Below, one piece after another: positions 24,259 to 35,332 of a stretch of DNA of 64,000 bases. A program made the translations under genes and the position numbers. Source of the DNA: Myxococcus landrumus. Lineage in GTDB: Bacteria; Myxococcota; Myxococcia; Myxococcales; Myxococcaceae. The stretch's first letter is position 1; the number at the start of each line of letters is the position of its first letter. The DNA lies in the NCBI RefSeq assembly GCF_017301635.1, contig NZ_CP071091.1:1934001-1998000 (forward strand). Reading direction: 5' to 3'. The notes under the pieces are model-generated. The model was not told where the DNA came from, ran no database searches, and was given only the letters and a program-made list of their open reading frames with translations.

Positions 24259-27200
24259 TCAGGTGTTCCTTCCGCCGCGACGCTGGAGGGCCTGACGACG
24301 GGCCTCCGCTCGCTCCTGGTGCTTCACGGCCTGGGTGCCCGGCTCCGAGTCGGAGGACAACCTCCGCGCCAGCGCGTGGACCGTGGGGTGCTCGAAGAAG
24401 TGGGTGATGGGAACGTCCCGCCCGAGCGACTCGCGGATTCGCGCGCACGCGCGCACCGCCGCCAGCGAGCTGCCGCCCAGGTCATCGAAGAAGTGCGAAT
24501 GGACCCCCACCGCGGGGAAGCCGAGCGTCTCCGCCCAGGCTCGCGACAGCGTCTCCTCCAGCGGCGTGCGTGGCGCCCCTTCCGCGGGGGCCATGCGCAT
24601 CGGCGGCGGCAACGCACGCGTGTCCACCTTGCCGCTGGACAACAGCGGCAGTGCATCCAGCGCGACGAAGTCCACGGGCACCAGGTACTCGGGCAAGCGG
24701 GTTCGCAAGCTCGCCTTCAACTCTCCGGGAGGAGGCAGCCCTCCTTCGGGAGGGACCACGTACGCCACGAGCCGGGCCTCCCCTCCCGAGGGTGGACGCC
24801 ACACACGCACGTGCGCCTGCCGCATCCCCACGAGCTCGCGCAACACGCCCTCCACCTCCCCTGGCTCGATGCGGAAGCCGCGCAGCTTCACCTGCGCGTC
24901 CATGCGTCCCAAGAGCTCCAACCGGCCATCGGGACGCCAGCGGGCCCCGTCTCCCGTGCGGTACAGGCGCGCTCCCTCCGCGCTTCCGTATGGGTCTGGA
25001 ACGAAGCGCGCCGCCGTCAGGTCCGGACGGCCCAGGTAGCCGCGCGCCACCATCGGCCCACCGACGAACAGCTCTCCCGCCACACCTGGAGGGACGGGGT
25101 TCAGCGCCTCGTCGAGCACGTAGGCATCCACCGCGGGCAGCGGACGGCCGATGTCCGGCGTGCCTTCCCCCGCATGGCATGTCGCCCAGGTCGAGCACAC
25201 GGTCGCCTCGGTGGGGCCGTAGGCATTCACGAACGTCCGCCCGGGAGCGAAGCGCGACACCAGGTCCTCCGGGCAGGACTCTCCCGCGGAGACCATCATC
25301 CGCAAGTCTGGGAGCGGAGCCTCTGGCAAGAGCGCGCACGCGGACGGAGGAAGCGTCACGAGCGTGATGCGCTCCTCTCGCAGCACGCGGTGCAGCGCCT
25401 CGCCCGCGAGCAACTCTCCCGTGGGAGGCAGATGCAGCGCCGCGCCCGTCACGAGCGCCTGGAGGTACTCCGCGACCGAGGCATCGAACGCCGGAGATGC
25501 GAACTGGAGCACGCGGTCGCCGGGCCCCAACCCGAAGCCCCGCCACATCGACTCCGCCAGATGCAGCGCTCCGCGATGGGTCACCACCACACCCTTCGGA
25601 TGTCCCGTGCTGCCCGACGTGTAGATGACATACGCGGAGCAGTCCGACGACGGGAGCGGTGACGCCACGACAGGAGGCTCCTCCTCTCCCGGCGCGTGCC
25701 CGCCCAGCTCCTCCCACCGAAAGAGCGACACGTCCGAGGGAAGCTCCAGGCGCCGCGCGAGCCGGTCCTGCACGAGCAGGCCACGGGCCCTCGCGTCGCG
25801 CAGCATCCACGCGATTCGCTCGGGAGGGTGCGAAGGCTCGCAGGGCACCACCGTCCCGCCCGCCTTCAGCACGGCGAGGAATGCGATGACAGTCCCGGGA
25901 TGTCCTCGCTCCATCATGACGCCGACGCGGACCTCCGGCCCCACTCCCCGGCGCCGCAGCCTCGCGCCCAACCTCTCGGCCCAGTCATCGACCTCGAGGT
26001 ACGTCCAGCGAGACGTCCCCGAGACCAACGCCACCGCGTCCGGCGACCTCGCCACCGCGTCCTCGAAGGCTCCGTGCAGGCTTCGCGCTCGCGGCGCCTC
26101 CGAGGCCGCCGTGCTCAGGCCCAACGCGAGCAGTCCGCGCTGCTCATCGACGTCGAGCAGGGGCAAGTCCAGCACGGGCACTTCGGGCGTGCGCGCGGCG
26201 GCGTCCAGCAGCGTTCGGAGATGGCGCACCATGCGCTCGGCGAGCGCCGTGTCGAACAGGTCCGTGCAGTACTCGAGGCTCGCGGCGAAGCCCCCTTCCG
26301 ACTCGGCCATCGTCAATGTCAGGTCGAAGGCCGAGGCCTGGTTGCGCAGCGGCACGGACTCCAGCTCCAGCGCCCCCAGCCGGACCCGCGTCCCCGCGCC
26401 TCCCAGTGCGAAGGGCGCGAGCGCTTCGCGTCCGGGACGACCGGCGTGCAGCACGAACATCGTCTGGAAGACGGGAGCACGCGCCGCATCCCGCCGGGGC
26501 TGGAGCCGTTCGACCATGCGGGCGAAGGACAGCTCCTGGTGCTCCAGCGCCTCCAGCACGAGGCCGCGCACCTCCTTCAGCAGCGAGGAGAAGGACTGCC
26601 CTCGCGTCACGCGCGCGCGAAGCGCCATGGGATTGACGAAGTAACCCAGTTGCCTCGACAGGTCCGCGTGCTCCCGGCCCGTCGTCGGCGTCCCCACCAC
26701 CAGGTCTTCCTGTCCGGTGTAGCGCCGCAGGAAGGCCACGTAGCCCGCGAGCAACACCATGAAGGGTGTGGCGCCCTGCGCACCCGCCAGCGACAGCAGC
26801 CGTGAGGCCGTGTCTCCCTCCACCCGGAAGGACACCGACGCGCCCCGGAAGGACTGGAGCCGGGGCCGCGTCCTCGAGGTCGGCAACTCCAGCACCGGCA
26901 GCTCACCTCCCAGGCGCTCGCGCCACCAGGACTGGAGCGCTTCGCCTTTCGCGCCGGTGAGCCGCGCCTCCCTGTCACGGAGGAGAGGACCCGCCATCGG
27001 CGGCGGAGCGGGCAGCTCCGCGGGCACGCCTCGAACCCCCGCGGTGTAGAGGACGCCCAGCTCTTCGGCCAACACCTCCAGCGACCAGAAGTCGGTGATG
27101 AGGTGGTGGAATACGAGCAGCAACACGGGCCCGCGTTCGACGCCCGTGAAGACACGCACGCGCATCAAGGGCCCACGCTCCAGGTCGAAGGGCCGCTGCG

Positions 27201-29571
27201 ACTCCACATCCAGACGCTCGCGCAGGGCCGCTTCGCTCCAGCCACTCGCGGATTCCCGCTCCATCACTGGCGCGGCGGCGGAGCGCCACACAGGCTCGCC
27301 TCGCTCCTCGGGAAACGCACAGGCCAAGGCCGGATGCCGAGCGGCGAGTTCGGTGAACACCCGCGCGAGGACCTCCAGGTCCACGTCGGGCGCCAGCCGC
27401 ATTGCCCGAGCGATGTGGTACGCGGTGCCACCGGGCGCCAACCGCTGGAGGAACCACAGCGCACGCTGCCCGTCCGAGACATGGGGCGACACATCCCCGG
27501 CCGCCGAGGACAACACGGGCTCCACCACCGTGCCTCGCTCGTGCTCCACCCTCGCCGCCACTTCGCGCAGGCTCGGGCCCTGGAGCAGGAACGTGGGCGG
27601 CAGAGACACGCCCCACCGCCGCTGGATGGCGTGCATCACGTCCAGCCCCCGCAGCGAGTCCAATCCGTACCGCGTGAGCGGTGCATCCGCGTCAAGCGCA
27701 GCGGTGGAGCTCCCCAACCGCCACGCCACGTCCCCCGCCAGCCACCCGAGCACCTCCTCGGACTGACTCGCGTCGGCGGCACGTGCCTCCACCTCGGACT
27801 CGCGCCACGCCTTCACCACCTCCAGCGCACCGTCGAGATAGGTCCGCCGCGTCACCCGCCGCTGGACCTTTCCGCTCGAGGTCTTGGGCAGGCTCCCCGC
27901 GGTGATGAGCACCACCGCGTGCGCGGCCACGCCATGCTCCTCCGTCAGCGAGGCCTGAATCCGCGCGAGGGCGTCATCGGCGGCGCCGCTCTCCGCCGCC
28001 TTCGCGGCCACCTCCTGGACCACGACGAGCCGCTCCTCGCCGTTCACCTGCACCGGGAACGCGACACCGCAGCCAGGCCGCAGGGCCGGGTGGCTCCGCT
28101 CCACCGTCAGCTCCAGGTCCTGCGGATAGAGGTTGCGCCCGCGAAGGATGAGCACGTCCTTCAACCGGCCGGTGATGAAGACCTCGCCGTCCTCGACGAT
28201 GGCCAGGTCGCCCGTGCGCAGGAAGGGACCCTCGCCCGAGCCCGCCAGCCGACCATTGAAGTCGCGCTCGGTCTCCTCCGGCCGCTGCCAGTAGCCCTCC
28301 GCGACGCTGGGGCCTCTCACCCACAGCTCGCCCACCCGTCCTGGAGGCACCGGCTCGCGCGTACCCGGGTCCACCACCCGCACCTCCTGCACCCCGAGCA
28401 CCTCGCCACAGCTCACCAGCGCGGTGCCTTCCTCTCCGGGAGACGGCGGGCGCGCCTCGCCTCGCTCCAACCCCTCGCGTGCGTAGTCGCGCACGACCAG
28501 CACATCCTCGCGCTCCTCCGCGCGCTGGCGGCCGGTGACGATGAGCGTCCCCTCCGCGAGCCCGTAGCAGGGATAGAGCGCCTGACGACGGAAGCCCCCC
28601 GGCGCGAAGGCCTGGGCGAAGCGCTCCATCGTCTCCGCGCGCACCGGCTCCGCGCCGCAGTACGCGACCTCCCACCGGCTCAGGTCCAACGCCGCGCGCT
28701 CCTCGGGCGTGCTCTTGCGCACGCACAGGTCGAACGCGAAGTTGGGCCCGCCACTCACCGTGCCGCCATGGCGGGAGATGACCTCCAGCCACCGCATGGG
28801 CCGCTGGAGGAAGTACAGGGGCGGCATCAGCGACGACGGCATGTCGCGGAACAGCGGGTGGATGATGCCGGCGATCAACCCCATGTCGTGGTACGGCGGC
28901 AGCCAGGAGACGAACCGGGGATTCGGCTTCGCGTTGAAGCCCCGGGAGATGAGCTCCGAGTTGTGCAGCAGCTGCCGGTGCCCCAGCACCACGCCTCGGG
29001 GCGTCCCCGTGGAGCCGGACGTGTACTGGAGGAACGCCACCGTGTCGGGACGCAGGTCGAGCTCGCGCCACGACCCGGCCTCCTCCACGGGCACCGCGTC
29101 CGTCGGTAGCCAGCGCAGCGCGCGCAGGTCCTCGCGTCCCTCGGTGAGGGGCCCCACCAGCGCGGCGATGCCTTCGGTGGTGAGCGCCACGCGCGCACCG
29201 CAGTCCGCCACCAGCGACAGGAGCCTGGGCAACGTGCGCCCCAGCCGCGTCACATCCGGGGGATACGCCGGCACCGCCACCACTCCGGCGTACAAGCACG
29301 CGAGGAAGCCCACCACGTACTCACGACCCGGTGGGTACATGAGCAACGCACGGTCTCCGGGGGCCAGCTCCCGCTGAAGTCGCGCCGCCACCGCGCGCAC
29401 CTCGGTGTCCAGCTGCGCATAGGTGACGGTGTGCTCCCCCGTCTCATCCACGAAGGTGTAGATGTCATCCGTTGGCTGATTCAGCGCGCGGAAGCGGCAC
29501 ACCTCCACGAGCGTGGCGGACTCCGGACGGACGAACGCGGATGCGGGGGAAACGCGAGTCGGCAGGTGCAT
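24259..29571 (-). CDS. Lipopeptide initiation protein: FAAL-ACP-C-A-PCP
   Basis: First gene of the megasynthase operon. The N-terminal fatty-acyl-AMP ligase (about 29530-27790) shows FLQYTSGSTGTPRGVV, SWLPPYHDMGLIAGIIHPLF and CYGLAEGTL, typical of FAALs that load a fatty acid directly onto a carrier. The ACP (about 27780-27560) has YGLDSLRGLD. The C domain (about 27480-26140) has HHLITDFW, with Phe where HHxxxDG has Gly, and should join the acyl chain to the first amino acid. The A domain (about 26090-24600) has intact YTSGSTG; its pocket reads D-A-A-T-V-A-A-V-C, close to Phe/Tyr-type codes (low confidence). The PCP (LGGSSLA, about 24560-24330) is followed by a charged tail rich in Arg, Glu and Gln that may dock on the next protein. 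I prefer ATG 29571 because the 22 extra residues from ATG 29637 do not look like a FAAL start; neither has a clear ribosome binding site. Confidence 0.93.
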   Translation of the reverse strand: MHLPTRVSPASAFVRPESATLVEVCRFRALNQPTDDIYTFVDETGEHTVTYAQLDTEVRAVAARLQRELAPGDRALLMYPPGREYVVGFLACLYAGVVAVPAYPPDVTRLGRTLPRLLSLVADCGARVALTTEGIAALVGPLTEGREDLRALRWLPTDAVPVEEAGSWRELDLRPDTVAFLQYTSGSTGTPRGVVLGHRQLLHNSELISRGFNAKPNPRFVSWLPPYHDMGLIAGIIHPLFRDMPSSLMPPLYFLQRPMRWLEVISRHGGTVSGGPNFAFDLCVRKSTPEERAALDLSRWEVAYCGAEPVRAETMERFAQAFAPGGFRRQALYPCYGLAEGTLIVTGRQRAEEREDVLVVRDYAREGLERGEARPPSPGEEGTALVSCGEVLGVQEVRVVDPGTREPVPPGRVGELWVRGPSVAEGYWQRPEETERDFNGRLAGSGEGPFLRTGDLAIVEDGEVFITGRLKDVLILRGRNLYPQDLELTVERSHPALRPGCGVAFPVQVNGEERLVVVQEVAAKAAESGAADDALARIQASLTEEHGVAAHAVVLITAGSLPKTSSGKVQRRVTRRTYLDGALEVVKAWRESEVEARAADASQSEEVLGWLAGDVAWRLGSSTAALDADAPLTRYGLDSLRGLDVMHAIQRRWGVSLPPTFLLQGPSLREVAARVEHERGTVVEPVLSSAAGDVSPHVSDGQRALWFLQRLAPGGTAYHIARAMRLAPDVDLEVLARVFTELAARHPALACAFPEERGEPVWRSAAAPVMERESASGWSEAALRERLDVESQRPFDLERGPLMRVRVFTGVERGPVLLLVFHHLITDFWSLEVLAEELGVLYTAGVRGVPAELPAPPPMAGPLLRDREARLTGAKGEALQSWWRERLGGELPVLELPTSRTRPRLQSFRGASVSFRVEGDTASRLLSLAGAQGATPFMVLLAGYVAFLRRYTGQEDLVVGTPTTGREHADLSRQLGYFVNPMALRARVTRGQSFSSLLKEVRGLVLEALEHQELSFARMVERLQPRRDAARAPVFQTMFVLHAGRPGREALAPFALGGAGTRVRLGALELESVPLRNQASAFDLTLTMAESEGGFAASLEYCTDLFDTALAERMVRHLRTLLDAAARTPEVPVLDLPLLDVDEQRGLLALGLSTAASEAPRARSLHGAFEDAVARSPDAVALVSGTSRWTYLEVDDWAERLGARLRRRGVGPEVRVGVMMERGHPGTVIAFLAVLKAGGTVVPCEPSHPPERIAWMLRDARARGLLVQDRLARRLELPSDVSLFRWEELGGHAPGEEEPPVVASPLPSSDCSAYVIYTSGSTGHPKGVVVTHRGALHLAESMWRGFGLGPGDRVLQFASPAFDASVAEYLQALVTGAALHLPPTGELLAGEALHRVLREERITLVTLPPSACALLPEAPLPDLRMMVSAGESCPEDLVSRFAPGRTFVNAYGPTEATVCSTWATCHAGEGTPDIGRPLPAVDAYVLDEALNPVPPGVAGELFVGGPMVARGYLGRPDLTAARFVPDPYGSAEGARLYRTGDGARWRPDGRLELLGRMDAQVKLRGFRIEPGEVEGVLRELVGMRQAHVRVWRPPSGGEARLVAYVVPPEGGLPPPGELKASLRTRLPEYLVPVDFVALDALPLLSSGKVDTRALPPPMRMAPAEGAPRTPLEETLSRAWAETLGFPAVGVHSHFFDDLGGSSLAAVRACARIRESLGRDVPITHFFEHPTVHALARRLSSDSEPGTQAVKHQERAEARRQALQRRGGRNT

Positions 29572-29827
29572 GTCGAGTCCCGGGGGGGATTTGCCCGAGG
29601 ACGCCAGCCGGATGAGCACGGCACACACGCGTCCCATCGACGTGGGGGCGATGTCCGCACCGCACCTGCTGGAGCCCCCTGAAACACTTCTCTTTTAACG
29701 TATTCGCGACATACGCGAAAGACGGCCCTCCAGGAATGACCCATGACATCGGGAGGAACCGGCTACATATCCAGGACACCGCCACGGCCACCCTGGCGCA
29801 TGGAAACAAGGCGGGAGGAGCAACGAG
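29572..29827. promoter_or_regulatory. Divergent promoter region between the megasynthase operon and the aldo/keto reductase
   Basis: The only sizeable non-coding stretch next to the megasynthase operon. It includes the alternative upstream start (29637) of the FAAL gene. It holds an AT-rich patch (ttttaacgtatt, about 29693-29704), uncommon in this DNA, next to a palindrome at 29703-29719. For the plus-strand reductase, ATGACA at 29743-29748 and ACATAT at 29765-29770, 16 bp apart, are a weak sigma70-like candidate. Both transcripts must start here unless promoters lie inside genes. Confidence 0.5.
29703..29719. promoter_or_regulatory. Palindrome TTCGCG-N5-CGCGAA, candidate operator
   Basis: A perfect 6-bp inverted repeat with a 5-bp spacer (TTCGCG ACATA CGCGAA) lies beside the AT-rich patch upstream of the NRPS operon. 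Size and spacing suit a dimeric helix-turn-helix regulator. The placement suggests control of the operon, the reductase or both. No regulator gene is seen nearby, so the cognate protein is unknown. Confidence 0.4.
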
Positions 29828-30808
29828 ATGAAGTACACCCAACTGGGCAAGACGGGTCTGCGTGTGTCGCGACTGGCCCTGGGCTGCATGAGCTACGGAA
29901 CTCCCTCCTGGCGCCCCTGGGTCCTGAGCGAGGAGGCGTCCCAGCCGTTCTTCCGACGCGCCGTGGAGATGGGCATCAACTTCTTCGACACGGCGGACAT
30001 GTATTCGCTGGGGGTCAGCGAAGAGGTGACCGGACGCGCGCTGCGTCGCTACGCGAAGATGGAAGAGGTGGTGCTGGCCACCAAGGTGTTCTTCCCCATG
30101 GGAGATGGCCCCAACATGCGCGGGCTCTCACGCAAGCACATCGTCCAGGCGTGTGAGGCGAGCCTGAAGCGGCTGGGGGTGGAGGCCATCGACCTGTACC
30201 AGATTCACCGGATGGACCCGCACACGCCCGTGGAGGAGACGCTGTGCGCGTTGGATCAACTCGTGCGTCAGGGGAAGGTGCGCTACCTGGGGGCGTCGTC
30301 GACCTTCGCGTGGCAGTTCGCGCGAGCGCTGGGCCTGGCGGACCAACATGGCTGGACGCGCTTCGTGTCCATGCAGGACCACTACAACCTGGTCTACCGC
30401 GAGGAGGAGCGCGAGATGCATCCGCTGTGCGAAGCGGAGGGCATTGGCATCCTCCCCTGGTCGCCCCTGGCGCGCGGCCTGCTCGCGGGCACACGCACGT
30501 CGCTGCAGGACAAGAGCTCCACGCCGCGCGCGAAGTCGGATGCCTACGCGGGCATGCTCTATGACCAGCCGGGCGACTGGGAGGTGGTGGAGGCGACGCG
30601 ACGTGTCGCCGCGGCGCGCAACGTGCCACCCGCCCAGGTCGCGCTGGCGTGGGTGCTGTCTCGCCCGCTGGTGACGGCGCCCATCATCGGCGCCACCAAG
30701 ATGGAGCACCTGGAGGACGCGGTGCGGGCCGTGGACCTCAAGCTCCAGCCAGAGGAGATCCAGCAGCTCGAGGCGCCCTACCTGCCCCACGCACTCCGGG
30801 GGATGTGA
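29828..30808 (+). CDS. Aldo/keto reductase (beta-subunit-like of voltage-gated K channel type)
   Basis: A 326-residue TIM-barrel NADPH-dependent oxidoreductase. The N-terminus [20 protein letters not shown] is typical. The catalytic tetrad is visible: Asp and Tyr in [11 protein letters not shown], Lys in VLATKVFF and His in LYQIHRMD. The C-terminal cofactor motif is [17 protein letters not shown] strong ribosome binding site (GGAGGAG) precedes the ATG at good spacing. The gene is divergent from the lipopeptide operon, sharing its upstream region, so it may tailor or detoxify a carbonyl product. It is equally compatible with an unrelated housekeeping reductase, because many bacteria carry several of these. 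Confidence 0.93.
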
Positions 30809-31755: not shown

Positions 31756-32928
31756 TTACTCACGGGCGTTGATGTCGTTACACGCCCGCGCCGATTCCGC
31801 TTGCGCCACCAGCGTCCGCCGCAACGCGTCCGCCGCCGAGCGGAGGTCCGCTTCGAAGTGGATGCGCAGTTCCGCCTGCTCCCGGATATCCCCCGGGCGC
31901 AGCACCTCCGAGGGCGCGAAGGTGGCCATGGCGACGGCCCCCGAGGGCATCTGGACGAGCCGCCCCCGGCACAGCGCGAGCCTGAACCCGGGCCCCCAGA
32001 GCATCTGCCCCGCGACGCGTCCGAGCGCCAGCAGCAGCAGCGGGCGGGCCTCCGTGACTTCCGAGGCGAGCCGTTCCCGGCGCGACCAGGCGTCCCGCCA
32101 GTCCAGGGGTTCGTCGTGGCCACCGGACCGTGCCTCCTGGGAGACCCTCAGGTCCGTGCGCCGCAACCCCGCACGCGCGAGCACGACCTCCAGGAACTTC
32201 CCCGCGGGGCCGACGAAGCACACGCCGCGCCCCTCTTCCCACGTCCCGGGCACATCCCCCAGCAGCATCACGGGTGTCCTGGCTCCACCGCGCGCCCAGG
32301 TGCGCCGCTCCACACGCGCCGCTGGAGACGATGAGGGCTCCATGCCGCCGGGAGGGTCCTCCCACCGGAGCCCCGCGCCGAAGGTGAGGCGCACGCCGTC
32401 CCAGTGCGCGCTGGTGTCCGGGGTGAAGAGGCTCCAGCACAGCGTGGGAAACCGGCCCACGAGGAAGGGCGCGGCCAGCCGGACGACGCGGTGGTCCGGC
32501 CGGTACCAGGCCACGTGGCGCTCCGCGCCGTCCAACATCTCCCGCCGGAAGCGGACGCGAATCACCAGGTTGCTCACGTCCCGCCGCACCGCGCGCTCCA
32601 TGCGCCGCAGCCGCTGAACGTCCAGGTCCCCTTCCCGCTCCAAGAGGCGCCGCTCTCCCCGTGTCATCCGCCAGAGCACGCGGTACAGCAGCCCCCAGCG
32701 CTCCGGGGCCCGATGACACACCACCTTCTCCGCCAGCCCCAGGAAGTCCCAAGGCAACACCGGGAGCACCCGCGCCGACGTGCCCTCCAGGCCGCCCGGG
32801 TCCACTGCCCCCTCCCAGGGCCCCGGGGCGTCTTCGAAGGTGACCCGCTCCGGGGGCACGCCCCGCGCAAGCAGCCCCCGCGCCACGTCCCGAAACGCCC
32901 CCAATTCCGATGCCACGCTCACCCGCAC
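31756..32928 (-). CDS. DUF4130 / uracil-DNA-glycosylase-like fusion protein, probably catalytically altered
   Basis: The N-terminal half matches DUF4130 of the TIGR03915-type putative DNA-repair proteins (block HVAWYRPDHRVVRLAAPFLV, then WSLFTPDTSAHWDG). The C-terminal half has the fold markers of family-4-like uracil-DNA glycosylases (VMLLGDVPGTWEE, CFVGPAGKFLEVVLARAG, LLLLALGRVAG). Several key residues differ: the GEQPG-type motif is GDVPG, the HPS motif near the C-terminus is APS (ATFAPSEVLR), the UdgX-type KRRIH loop is missing, and the four Fe-S cysteines are not there (no CxxC before VMLLGD). I place the start at GTG 32928, five bases after a perfect AGGAGG; an in-frame ATG at 32991 adds 21 residues of low-complexity leader. 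Function: DNA-repair-associated, mechanism unknown. Confidence 0.8.
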   Translation of the reverse strand: MRVSVASELGAFRDVARGLLARGVPPERVTFEDAPGPWEGAVDPGGLEGTSARVLPVLPWDFLGLAEKVVCHRAPERWGLLYRVLWRMTRGERRLLEREGDLDVQRLRRMERAVRRDVSNLVIRVRFRREMLDGAERHVAWYRPDHRVVRLAAPFLVGRFPTLCWSLFTPDTSAHWDGVRLTFGAGLRWEDPPGGMEPSSSPAARVERRTWARGGARTPVMLLGDVPGTWEEGRGVCFVGPAGKFLEVVLARAGLRRTDLRVSQEARSGGHDEPLDWRDAWSRRERLASEVTEARPLLLLALGRVAGQMLWGPGFRLALCRGRLVQMPSGAVAMATFAPSEVLRPGDIREQAELRIHFEADLRSAADALRRTLVAQAESARACNDINARE

Positions 32929-33053
32929 CTGGACCTCCTGGTCGCTCAGCCCCGCGCGGCACGGACCTCCCGAGCCTCTCCGCGCGCGCACGCTGTCTAC
33001 CTTCCAGGTCTGACATCACCATCCCACCCGTGACGTCGCGGGCGACCTCCGGG

Positions 33054-34022
33054 CTACTCCTCCTTCGCGAGCGAGTCCACCTGCTCCTGGAGCCCTCCCA
33101 GCTCCTCGAAGAAGGACTCCATGGGCTGGGCGCGGGCCAGCCTGAGCGCGGGGGGCAGGAGCGTGCGGGAGAAGTCCAGGGAGGTGCTGAAGGGCTCGTT
33201 GCCCAGCAGGTCATCCGCCCGGGACAGCGCGCCAAAGGCCAGCGTCACCACGACCAGCACTCGCACCAGCCTCGCCGGCTCCCACCGGGCCACGTAGCGC
33301 AGGTGCCAGAACAGGCCGACGCCCATGAGCACCAGGAACGTCACGTGGTGCAGCCAGACGAGTCCGGAGCCCCATCCCAGGCTGAAGCCCAGCGCCGACA
33401 ACACGGGCGGCAGCGCGACGGCGGCCAGCAACACCAGGCTGCCGATGGTGGCGTGGGTGCGGTAGTGGAACTGGCGCCGGGAGATGCGGCTGGCCACGGC
33501 CCAGCCTCCCGCCCACAACAGCGTGAGCGTGAGCGGCATTACCAGGGCCATCGTCAGCGCGCCCCAGTCCGTGCGGCCGTAGTTGCCCAGGTGCGACTCG
33601 AGCGCGCTCACCGCCAGCAGGGCCAGCATCGCCAGCGGGAAGGCCCGCGCATGCTCGAACCAGCGCTCGCGAGGCGCCGTGGGCGCGGACGTCACCACGG
33701 TCTCCGGCACCGCGTGGTTGCGCCCCCGGAAGCGCAGCACCGTGTCCCCCACCGCCACGCGCGTATCCGGCGCCACCTCCAGCTCCGCCAGCCGCGCCCA
33801 GGAGTCCACGCGCCAGGTGCCGTTGTGGCTGCCCGCGTCGCGCACCACGAGCACTCCATCCTCGCGCCGCTCGATGCGCAGGTGCTCCGGGGACACCTTC
33901 GGGTCATCCAGGATGACGTCGTTCGAGTACGCGCGCCCCACCGTCGCGGGGAAGCGCTCCAGCCGGTGACGCGCGTGGACGGAATCGCCCTCCACCACCT
34001 CGACGAAAATCACTTCGTCCAC
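33054..34022 (-). CDS. FHA-domain integral membrane protein
   Basis: A 322-residue protein. Residues 1-100 form an FHA phosphothreonine-binding domain (VGRAYSNDVILDD, SPEHLRIE, DAGSHNGTWRV). After a linker come about five hydrophobic segments between residues 125 and 255, then a C-terminal soluble tail ending in QVDSLAKEE. It should sit in the inner membrane with FHA in the cytoplasm, reading Ser/Thr-kinase signals. Its ATG overlaps the end of the upstream protease gene by 13 bp, so the two are co-transcribed and probably translationally coupled. The membrane part is not recognised as a known transporter. Confidence 0.85.
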   Translation of the reverse strand: MDEVIFVEVVEGDSVHARHRLERFPATVGRAYSNDVILDDPKVSPEHLRIERREDGVLVVRDAGSHNGTWRVDSWARLAELEVAPDTRVAVGDTVLRFRGRNHAVPETVVTSAPTAPRERWFEHARAFPLAMLALLAVSALESHLGNYGRTDWGALTMALVMPLTLTLLWAGGWAVASRISRRQFHYRTHATIGSLVLLAAVALPPVLSALGFSLGWGSGLVWLHHVTFLVLMGVGLFWHLRYVARWEPARLVRVLVVVTLAFGALSRADDLLGNEPFSTSLDFSRTLLPPALRLARAQPMESFFEELGGLQEQVDSLAKEE

Positions 34023-35332
34023 GACAACCCCTCCAGGTAGCGGCGAGCCAGCTTGCGCGCGTTGTCCGCCGTGAAGCCGCCCAGCGTGAGGCTGGTGTCG
34101 ACGCCGCTCGTGCTGGCGTTGAGCGCGGCGGCGCGCAGCACCAGGTCATAGAGGCCCGGGAAGCGCTTGTAGGCGCGCAGGCACATCGCGGCGCGCACGG
34201 GCAGCCCCTCCACGTCCACGAACTCCGTCGTGCACCGGAAGTTGGTGACGTCCTCGCGCGACGCCTCCACCGTGTCCGGGTCCTGGGAGAACAGCGCGCT
34301 GTAGAGCGCGGAGAAGCGCAGCGCGCCCAGCTTCTGGCTGGAGGCCTGCTGGTGCAGGAAGGCCACCACGCCCGTGCGGTGGCGCGAGGACAGGTAGATG
34401 TCCTCCTCCGAGGAGCACTGGTAGTTGGTCACCGTGTACGGCACCTCCGGCTCATGCGGCGTGTCGCCCCAGCACTTGAGGAAGGGAATCCAGCGCCCCG
34501 GCACGTGGTAGCTGCCCAGCCGGTGCTTGGGCAGCGCCGCCGCGAGCATCTGCTCGGTGAGCCGCTGCTGGTTCTCGATGAGCTGCGCGCGCACCGACTC
34601 GACGAGCGGCGCGGCCTCATCGGCCTTCGCCTGGAGCGCTCGCGCCAGCAGCGCACTCGCGCGCTTCACGGGCACCAGGAAGCCCAACTGATTTCCCATG
34701 GTGGCCACGTTGACGCCCACCACCGTCCCCTGTCCGGTGAGCGTGGGCCCGCCGCTCATGCCCGGGTTGATGGCGCCGCTGAAGTGGACGCGCTCATAGA
34801 GCGAGTCCTGGATGAAGCCGTTGTAGGTCCCCTCGACGATGGTGGTGCCCAGGTCGTGTGGGTTCCCCATGGCGAACAAGCGCGTGCCCTGCGGCGGCTC
34901 GCGGTCCTCCAGCATGAAGAAGTCCTTCACGCCCGCCTCCATCCGGATGACGGCGAGGTCATGCACGACGTCCACGTCCACCAGCTTCGCGGGGACCGGC
35001 TCGCCGCCACTGCGCAGGACGAGCTCCGCGGTGTAGTCCTCCGGGTGGAGCACCACGTCCGAAATCACGTGGTAGTTCGTGATGGCGTGGCCCTGCGCGG
35101 AGACGAAGAAGGCCGAGCCGATGGACGACCGCGTGCCCGAGCGCCGCTCGATGATGCGCACCTGCGCGACGCGGTTCTGGATGCGCTGGAACAGCTCATG
35201 CGTGGCCGGAGGCAGCACGGCGGGAACCGGCGCCACGGGCAGTTCGCTTTCAGCGGGTGATGGGACATCCGGCTCGACCGGGGCGGCCGACGGCGCCTGC
35301 CCCAGCACGGCGACGAGAAGGAGGACGAACAT
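34010..35332 (-). CDS. Exported trypsin-like serine protease (S1C/DegP-like, no PDZ)
   Basis: A 440-residue protein with a short signal peptide (MFVLLLVAVLGQAPSA). The catalytic triad is visible: His in NYHVISDV, Asp in VVHDLAVIRM and Ser in NPGMSGGP. The protease core spans about residues 55-235. Instead of a PDZ domain there is a C-terminal region of about 200 residues with paired cysteines (FLKCWGD, NYQCSSEE, NFRCTTEF, AMCLRAY), which I do not recognise and which may form disulfides in the periplasm. The gene overlaps a downstream FHA membrane protein, suggesting a signalling link between periplasmic proteolysis and cytoplasmic phosphorylation (inference). Confidence 0.9.
   Translation of the reverse strand: MFVLLLVAVLGQAPSAAPVEPDVPSPAESELPVAPVPAVLPPATHELFQRIQNRVAQVRIIERRSGTRSSIGSAFFVSAQGHAITNYHVISDVVLHPEDYTAELVLRSGGEPVPAKLVDVDVVHDLAVIRMEAGVKDFFMLEDREPPQGTRLFAMGNPHDLGTTIVEGTYNGFIQDSLYERVHFSGAINPGMSGGPTLTGQGTVVGVNVATMGNQLGFLVPVKRASALLARALQAKADEAAPLVESVRAQLIENQQRLTEQMLAAALPKHRLGSYHVPGRWIPFLKCWGDTPHEPEVPYTVTNYQCSSEEDIYLSSRHRTGVVAFLHQQASSQKLGALRFSALYSALFSQDPDTVEASREDVTNFRCTTEFVDVEGLPVRAAMCLRAYKRFPGLYDLVLRAAALNASTSGVDTSLTLGGFTADNARKLARRYLEGLSWTK

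Follow-up and report, generated by a model that had tools for sequence, protein, structure and literature searches.

The Fusion Gene and Its Locus

The window analyzed here is the whole stretch of 64,000 nucleotides from Myxococcus landrumus (contig NZ_CP071091.1, positions 1,934,001 to 1,998,000), and it carries on the minus strand a gene of 390 codons (31756..32928) in which the open reading frame (ORF) and Pfam indicate a fusion of the N-terminal part of DUF4130 (DUF4130-N) and a uracil-DNA glycosylase (UDG) fold. According to the ORF list, the frame runs uninterrupted from a GTG start at 32928, and an AGGAGG ribosome-binding site (32934..32939, minus strand) was read 5 bases before this GTG, bearing out the perfect start noted earlier for this gene. 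Seven of the eight other loci of the clade containing M. landrumus (own clade) match the string GACCAGGAGGT at this position, the sole non-matching locus being that of G009, which has Asn before QEV. Several other frames across this GC-rich stretch (31756-32928) are also open for hundreds of codons each; the open frame is therefore little proof, and substitution rates carry the argument against decay instead. Long antisense ORFs over the gene were considered as real genes and taken as a GC effect. The codon-position GC of the UDG half (0.779/0.552/0.903; GC2 0.552, GC3 0.903) is still coding-like.

Neighbor comparison provided two synteny markers, an FHA-domain gene upstream (33054..34022, minus strand) and an aldo/keto reductase gene on the other side (29828..30808, plus strand). 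The fusion lies between the FHA/trypsin-like pair and the aldo/keto reductase in the own genome, G014, G008, G005, G006, G004, G011, G016, G017, G021, G019, G043, G125, and the canonical G020, and the canonical G040 has the same neighbor genes nearby in another order. Within the retrieved sequence, only the FHA neighbor is visible in G022 and G002 and only the reductase in G026, with neither in G010; the fusion of G033, G034, G037, and G041 had none of these neighbors there. Horizontal arrival or misassembly is unlikely, since the locus is syntenic with its relatives on both sides, and a near-identity search of plasmids gave no match. Membership in an anti-phage defense family was rejected, as the fusion gene has no PADLOC match.

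Two other genes in the window are recorded in passing. The trypsin-like protease gene (34010-35332, minus strand) overlaps the FHA-domain gene (33054-34022) and weakly resembles the protease part of PADLOC RT-Protease_XI (E 5e-14), probably just through a shared peptidase domain. At 24259-29637 (minus strand) lies a gene of the NRPS type encoding 1792 aa, with AMP-binding (two stretches), condensation, and carrier (two stretches) domains.

Domain Composition and Predicted Fold

The N-terminal half contains DUF4130 at residues 63-190 (32359..32742, minus strand), which scores 51.8 bits against the PF13566 gathering cut-off of 27, but over profile positions 1-91 of 146 only, so that the C-terminal third of DUF4130 is absent from the fusion, a truncation that goes beyond the description in the earlier note. 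The UDG-superfamily fold (residues 213-366; 31831..32292, minus strand), delimited by profiles, alignment, and Foldseek, appears to be derived from UdgX with its catalytic residues lost. It scores 38.1 bits against the Pfam superfamily cut-off of 24.3, and the protein falls below the NCBIfam cut-offs of TIGR03914 (UdgX; 71.2 bits vs. 189.95), the repair-protein family TIGR03915 (86.3 vs. 112.25), and TIGR00758 (family-4 UDG; 53.6 vs. 125.3). Among PDB sequences, M. smegmatis UdgX is the closest (E 8e-12), and the best Foldseek match for the protein model is UdgX 8iij (E 3.5e-11, TM 0.64 by target length, rmsd 4.0 Å). The structure model was built on 11 sequences, two of them with DUF4130, and has a mean pLDDT of 70.9, with 57-86 for residues 211-280 and 83-93 from residue 281 on; residues 142-215, including part of DUF4130, lie below 50 and were left uninterpreted. 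On this model, the UDG half is predicted to keep the alpha/beta fold of UdgX.

Loss of Catalytic Residues in the UDG Half

When aligned to canonical UdgX rows, the protein lacks the CxxC and has Arg in place of the third conserved Cys, residues that we take to be the 4Fe-4S cluster ligands of UdgX. Motif A (residues 224-228; 32245..32259, minus strand) reads GDVPG where UdgX has GEQPG, and VSQEARSG (32122..32145, minus strand) stands where UdgX has VTNAVKHF, followed by what aligns as a deletion of the KRRIH R-loop, with which R107 and H109 are gone. Motif B (residues 338-344; 31897..31917, minus strand) reads APSEVLR in place of HPS..LLR. Residue by residue, the changes are E52 to D, Q53 to V, D59 to E, N91 to Q, K94 to R, and H178 to A, while F65 and R184 are retained. 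The earlier note had claimed that the Fe-S cysteines were lost, that HPS had become APS without the catalytic-type His, and that the protein may be non-enzymatic; the alignment agrees on each residue, the changes at N91 and H178 speak for a disabled enzyme, and comparison with UdgX and family-4 enzymes points to a UdgX-derived protein with the motifs of neither family.

These losses are concentrated at functional positions. Among 49 columns invariant in 14 canonical rows, 11 of the 12 key catalytic or ligand columns are lost in the protein, compared to 12 of the 37 others (Fisher p 0.0005). The 12 key columns were selected with knowledge of the literature and the alignment and leave out R184, which sits in the group of 37; adding it to the key set gives 11 of 13. 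The same excess recurs by lineage, with p-values of 0.007 for the own clade, 0.037 for the second lost clade, and 0.047 for genus g18, represented in the alignment by one genome, G043. Not included among the canonical rows are the PDB fragment and two standalone UdgX proteins, that of G073 and that of G034, which its frame truncates.

Residue numbering and roles follow PMC10359453 and PMC10776899. UdgX is described there as having motif A GEQPG, an R-loop KRRIH with the cross-linking His109, motif B HPS(S/A)(L/V)(L/V)R, and an R184 that contacts the DNA backbone (PMC10359453). The UdgX mutants N91A and H178A were folded and inactive, R107A and D59A were inactive with folding severely affected, K94A and F65A were unfolded, and E52A and Q53A partly retained activity (PMC10776899). 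Since mutating H109 gives UdgX the activity of an ordinary UDG (PMC10359453), inactivity is argued here from N91 and H178 jointly and not from the R-loop His. Counting against this reading, motif B of Mug/TDG starts without His (MPSSSAR; PMC10359453).

Distribution and Number of the Losses

A homologue is present in all 27 genomes of the genus, and in 18 of them CxxC, N91, H109, and H178, the motif-B His, are all lost. Of the nine that keep H178, four keep all UDG motifs that could be read (G020, G026, G002, and the fragment of G012), three have lost CxxC (G010, G019, and G022), and two (G011 and G016) retain CxxC together with H178 and have lost N91, the R-loop, and R184. The last two carry Ser or Ala at R184, which counts against the pseudoenzyme reading given below, whereas R184 is kept in all 19 rows without H178. 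Position 178 is Ala in all nine own-clade genomes and A, D, E, or S across the lost rows; at position 91, the own clade has Q or R, and the other lost rows have S, H, or no residue. The possibility raised earlier, that homologues with HPS would reveal a single-strain change, is thereby settled: homologues with the His do exist (9/27), yet Ala is common to the nine-member own clade, ruling out a single-strain mutation. H178 is lost also in genus g18, in G043 by alignment and in G125 by BLAST only. The UDG half reads in one frame in 26 of the 27 genus genomes; in G012 a contig end truncates the copy, and one stop lies near the C-terminus in each of G010 and G011.

A second match, in a frame of about 237-277 aa, occurs in 13 of the 27 genus genomes, and the three that were read (G005, G003, and G012) are all canonical UdgX. 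No standalone UdgX was found in the own genome, and compensation by such a protein was rejected as a rule. Besides the fusion, the own genome has five other UDG-superfamily matches, which, as read by eye, presumably include Ung-like, intact family-4, UdgB-like, and Mug-like proteins. In genomes of other genera (G118, G144, and G140), the fusion was seen only as short pieces at the place searched; in G144 (L089), about the first 59 residues of the fusion lie close to about its last 53, and pieces occur also at L088 (G118) and L091 (G140). G037:C1 (L052) has, about 6-7 kb from its intact fusion, an additional and incomplete copy of the C-terminal UDG part.

Two trees bear on the number of losses, and the UDG fragment of G012 and the partial second copy of G037 were left out of them as well as of the charge and invariance counts. 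In a tree of three neighboring proteins, used as a stand-in for the species tree with 18 genomes (G026 filled in 30% of columns only), H178 is lost in g18, in the own clade, and in the clade of G006, G017, and G021, amounting to three losses if there was no regain; G011 and G016, sister of the own clade, keep H178, and so does the sister of the G006/G017/G021 clade. The tree of the N half (34 rows) likewise gives three losses without regain, and two changes under unordered parsimony. The trees disagree on G043: it falls within the genus's lost clade in the N-half tree, but in the neighbor-gene tree G043/G125 is left unresolved against the two genus clades. Judged from these trees, the motif-B His would have been lost at least three times, if it was never regained.

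Selection on the Two Halves

Selection was estimated as omega under a codon model with the tree fixed per group. For DUF4130, omega is 0.11 in the nine own-clade genomes, 0.092 in the four closest, and 0.17 in the seven genomes of the second lost clade, vs. 0.102 (six genomes) and 0.109 (three genomes) where the motifs are intact. The UDG half has 0.165 in the own clade, 0.233 in the four closest, and 0.242 in the second lost clade, vs. 0.066 and 0.039 in the intact-motif genomes. Omega = 1 was rejected in every fit (2ΔlnL 17 to 349). The UDG half is thus relaxed yet far from neutral, and the constraint on DUF4130 is about unchanged. Within the UDG half of the own clade, residues 263-300, the site of the former catalytic Asn and R-loop, are the most relaxed (omega 0.288), and the segments of motif A and motif B the least (0.11 and 0.126).

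Pairwise NG86 estimates for the UDG half point in the same direction as the codon model but are higher overall, 0.08-0.19 for intact-motif pairs, partly eroded genomes apart, and 0 to 0.57 in the lost clades. For DUF4130 they are 0.20-0.30 in intact-motif pairs and 0.10-0.52 in the lost clades, and because of this wider spread the statement of unchanged DUF4130 constraint rests on the codon model. Counts of conserved residues give the same picture as omega. Of 52 residues of the N half invariant in eight full-length canonical rows, the own clade retains 38 and the second lost clade 47, whereas in the UDG half the own clade retains 21 of the 49 invariant columns. With 14 of the 52 varying in the own clade, there is some erosion of the N half too, which counts against a retained job carried by that half.

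The Radical SAM Partner and the C-terminal Part of DUF4130

A TIGR03916 radical SAM gene lies directly upstream of the fusion in the canonical genomes G020, G033, G034, G037, G040, G041, and G072 (in two pieces), and on the Verrucomicrobia contig L038 the same place holds a gene beginning MELARKLAILADAAKYDASC, with, by eye, the CxxxCxxC stretch CTFDCLYC. No TIGR03916 match was found in the whole own genome; neither this missing partner nor the stepwise losses among relatives figure in the earlier note. Within the genus the match is full-length in G012 and G020 only, covers positions 2-27 only in G022 and G026, and is missing from the other 23.

DUF4130 is present in 44 of 195 genomes of the phylum. 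All 17 genomes with full-length DUF4130, matched to the profile end, have the radical SAM gene at an E threshold of 1e-20 (that of G072 under the family cut-off), vs. none of the 27 in which DUF4130 ends early (position 91 or 92; G010 at 114), although at 1e-3 the stubs of G022 and G026 match at positions 2-27. This shows that the DUF4130 C-terminal part goes together with radical SAM. The radical SAM profile also hits 17 genomes in which DUF4130 was not matched; 14 of these hits score below the family cut-off, and the three genomes with hits over it are G012 (broken by contig ends), G140 (partial, positions 2-249), and G166, whose gene is at G166:C32:18293-19480. Remains of the partner are seen in frame before DUF4130, namely the first two dozen radical SAM residues in G022, G026, and, by eye, G002, and a shorter MDVHQ or MDVHP stub, also by eye, in G021, G023, G006, G001, G007, G018, G017, and G024. 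No such N-terminal stub was seen in the own clade.

A Candidate Role and Its Alternatives

We think it likely that the fusion is a pseudoenzyme kept by selection for a non-catalytic, probably DNA-associated role centered on DUF4130-N, a role that we infer from sequence. The ancestor would have been the second gene of a two-gene DNA-repair module, in which a TIGR03916 radical SAM gene was followed by DUF4130 fused to a covalent UdgX. In the own lineage, the radical SAM gene and the C-terminal part of DUF4130 have disappeared, and the UDG half has shed its CxxC, the loop used for cross-linking, and the residues with which uracil is held and expelled, with the fold, R184, and DUF4130-N staying under purifying selection. 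Such a fusion would perform neither uracil excision nor DNA cross-linking; the job kept by selection would fall to basic DUF4130-N, most likely through binding to DNA or to a partner on DNA, and the UDG shell might serve as a folded DNA-facing scaffold, the last two steps being the less certain ones.

The net charge of the N half is +7 in the own protein, +6 to +10 in the 19 rows without H178, and +1 to +6 in eight radical-SAM rows, and the half is basic in all 34 DUF4130 rows. That of the UDG half drifts from -2 to +6 in the rows without H178, which counts against the UDG half as a DNA grip. A basic N half and the retention of R184 in 19 of 19 lost rows make DNA binding centered on DUF4130-N the most likely candidate job, which would leave the DNA-binding role suggested in the earlier note plausible.

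One alternative, that only DUF4130-N matters and the UDG half is a passive tail aiding solubility or folding without a DNA role, draws on the drifting charge and on a DUF4130 constraint about unchanged while the UDG half relaxed. It accounts poorly for an omega well below 1 in the UDG half, with its minima in the segments of motifs A and B (0.11 and 0.126), and for R184 kept in 19/19 lost rows, and we regard it as rather unlikely. Slow decay would make the fusion a translated relic without a selected function, its low omega coming from folding constraints or recent loss. Relaxation of the UDG half by about 3-6 fold relative to intact-motif genomes, key motifs eroding differently per lineage, and a module reduced to short pieces in G118, G144, and G140 all fit this, and because other genera hold only such pieces, the fusion could be a slower step on the same path to loss. 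Against it stand omega values of 0.165-0.242 (UDG) and 0.09-0.17 (DUF4130) among genomes that all share the losses, with omega = 1 rejected, and a homologue in 27 of 27 genus genomes whose UDG half reads in one frame in 26; plain decay, which omega argues against more strongly than the open frame does, is in our judgment improbable. The earlier impression that this is not a decaying pseudogene is upheld by the lack of an internal stop and the rejection of omega = 1.

The earlier note had also suggested a different chemistry, and in an altered enzyme the UDG half would act on DNA with another base or by a Mug/TDG-like or water-only mechanism. Retention of the fold, F65, and R184 would suit this, as would Mug/TDG enzymes without a motif-B His and UdgX H109 mutants that behave as ordinary UDGs (PMC10359453). 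Positions 91 and 178 vary, though, no new conserved polar set replaces the old residues, and constraint is weakest in the motif-3 stretch (omega 0.288 for residues 263-300), which speaks against the suggestion and makes an altered enzyme very improbable.

Returning to the selected pseudoenzyme, a broader scenario is put forward only tentatively. Myxobacteria may, on several independent occasions, have turned a covalent UDG fusion into a DNA reader or clamp without catalysis, where loss of radical SAM would have ended selection for the chemistry, with basic DUF4130-N and a UDG shell with its backbone-contacting arginine staying selected. If so, DUF4130-N would function as a unit of its own, and DUF4130-C would belong with the radical SAM enzyme. 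The loss series of this family acts as a natural dissection experiment, in which UdgX chemistry becomes dispensable where the radical SAM partner is missing and DUF4130-N keeps a selected job without either, and it makes the uncharacterized DUF4130 domain directly testable. It also adds a probable case of a repair enzyme turned pseudoenzyme more than once.

Comparison with Known Systems

A single sentence of PMC3765255 predicts for DUF4130 an enzymatic function related to mutagenesis, linked with SplB-like radical SAM proteins and UDGs, and TIGR03914 is named once in PMC13212565. In the open-licence PMC literature, we found no reported reaction for the radical SAM-DUF4130-UdgX module, and no paper on degenerate DUF4130-UDG fusions by title or abstract start.

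The closest known protein is M. smegmatis UdgX (TIGR03914), homologous over residues 210-368 by sequence and fold, with F65 and R184 kept in the fusion, which differs in lacking GEQPG, TN.VKH, the KRRIH loop, HPS, and CxxC. The DUF4130-UdgX proteins beside a TIGR03916 radical SAM gene (G020, G033, G034, G037, G040, G041, G072, and L038) have the same domain order, and the neighborhood is the same in G020 and, with another gene order, in G040; unlike them, the own genome has no TIGR03916 match, and its fusion has the C-terminal third of DUF4130 deleted and the UDG motifs lost. Family-4 UDG (TIGR00758) belongs to the same superfamily as the UDG half, but its GE(A/G)PG and HPA motifs are missing from the fusion, in contrast to the family-4 copy of the own genome (G000:C1:620097), which has GEGPG, CxxC, and HPAYLLR. 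Poxvirus D4 is a UDG-fold protein that acts as a polymerase processivity factor with its enzyme activity retained. By analogy of role, the fusion may resemble D4 in using a UDG fold to hold DNA or a partner.
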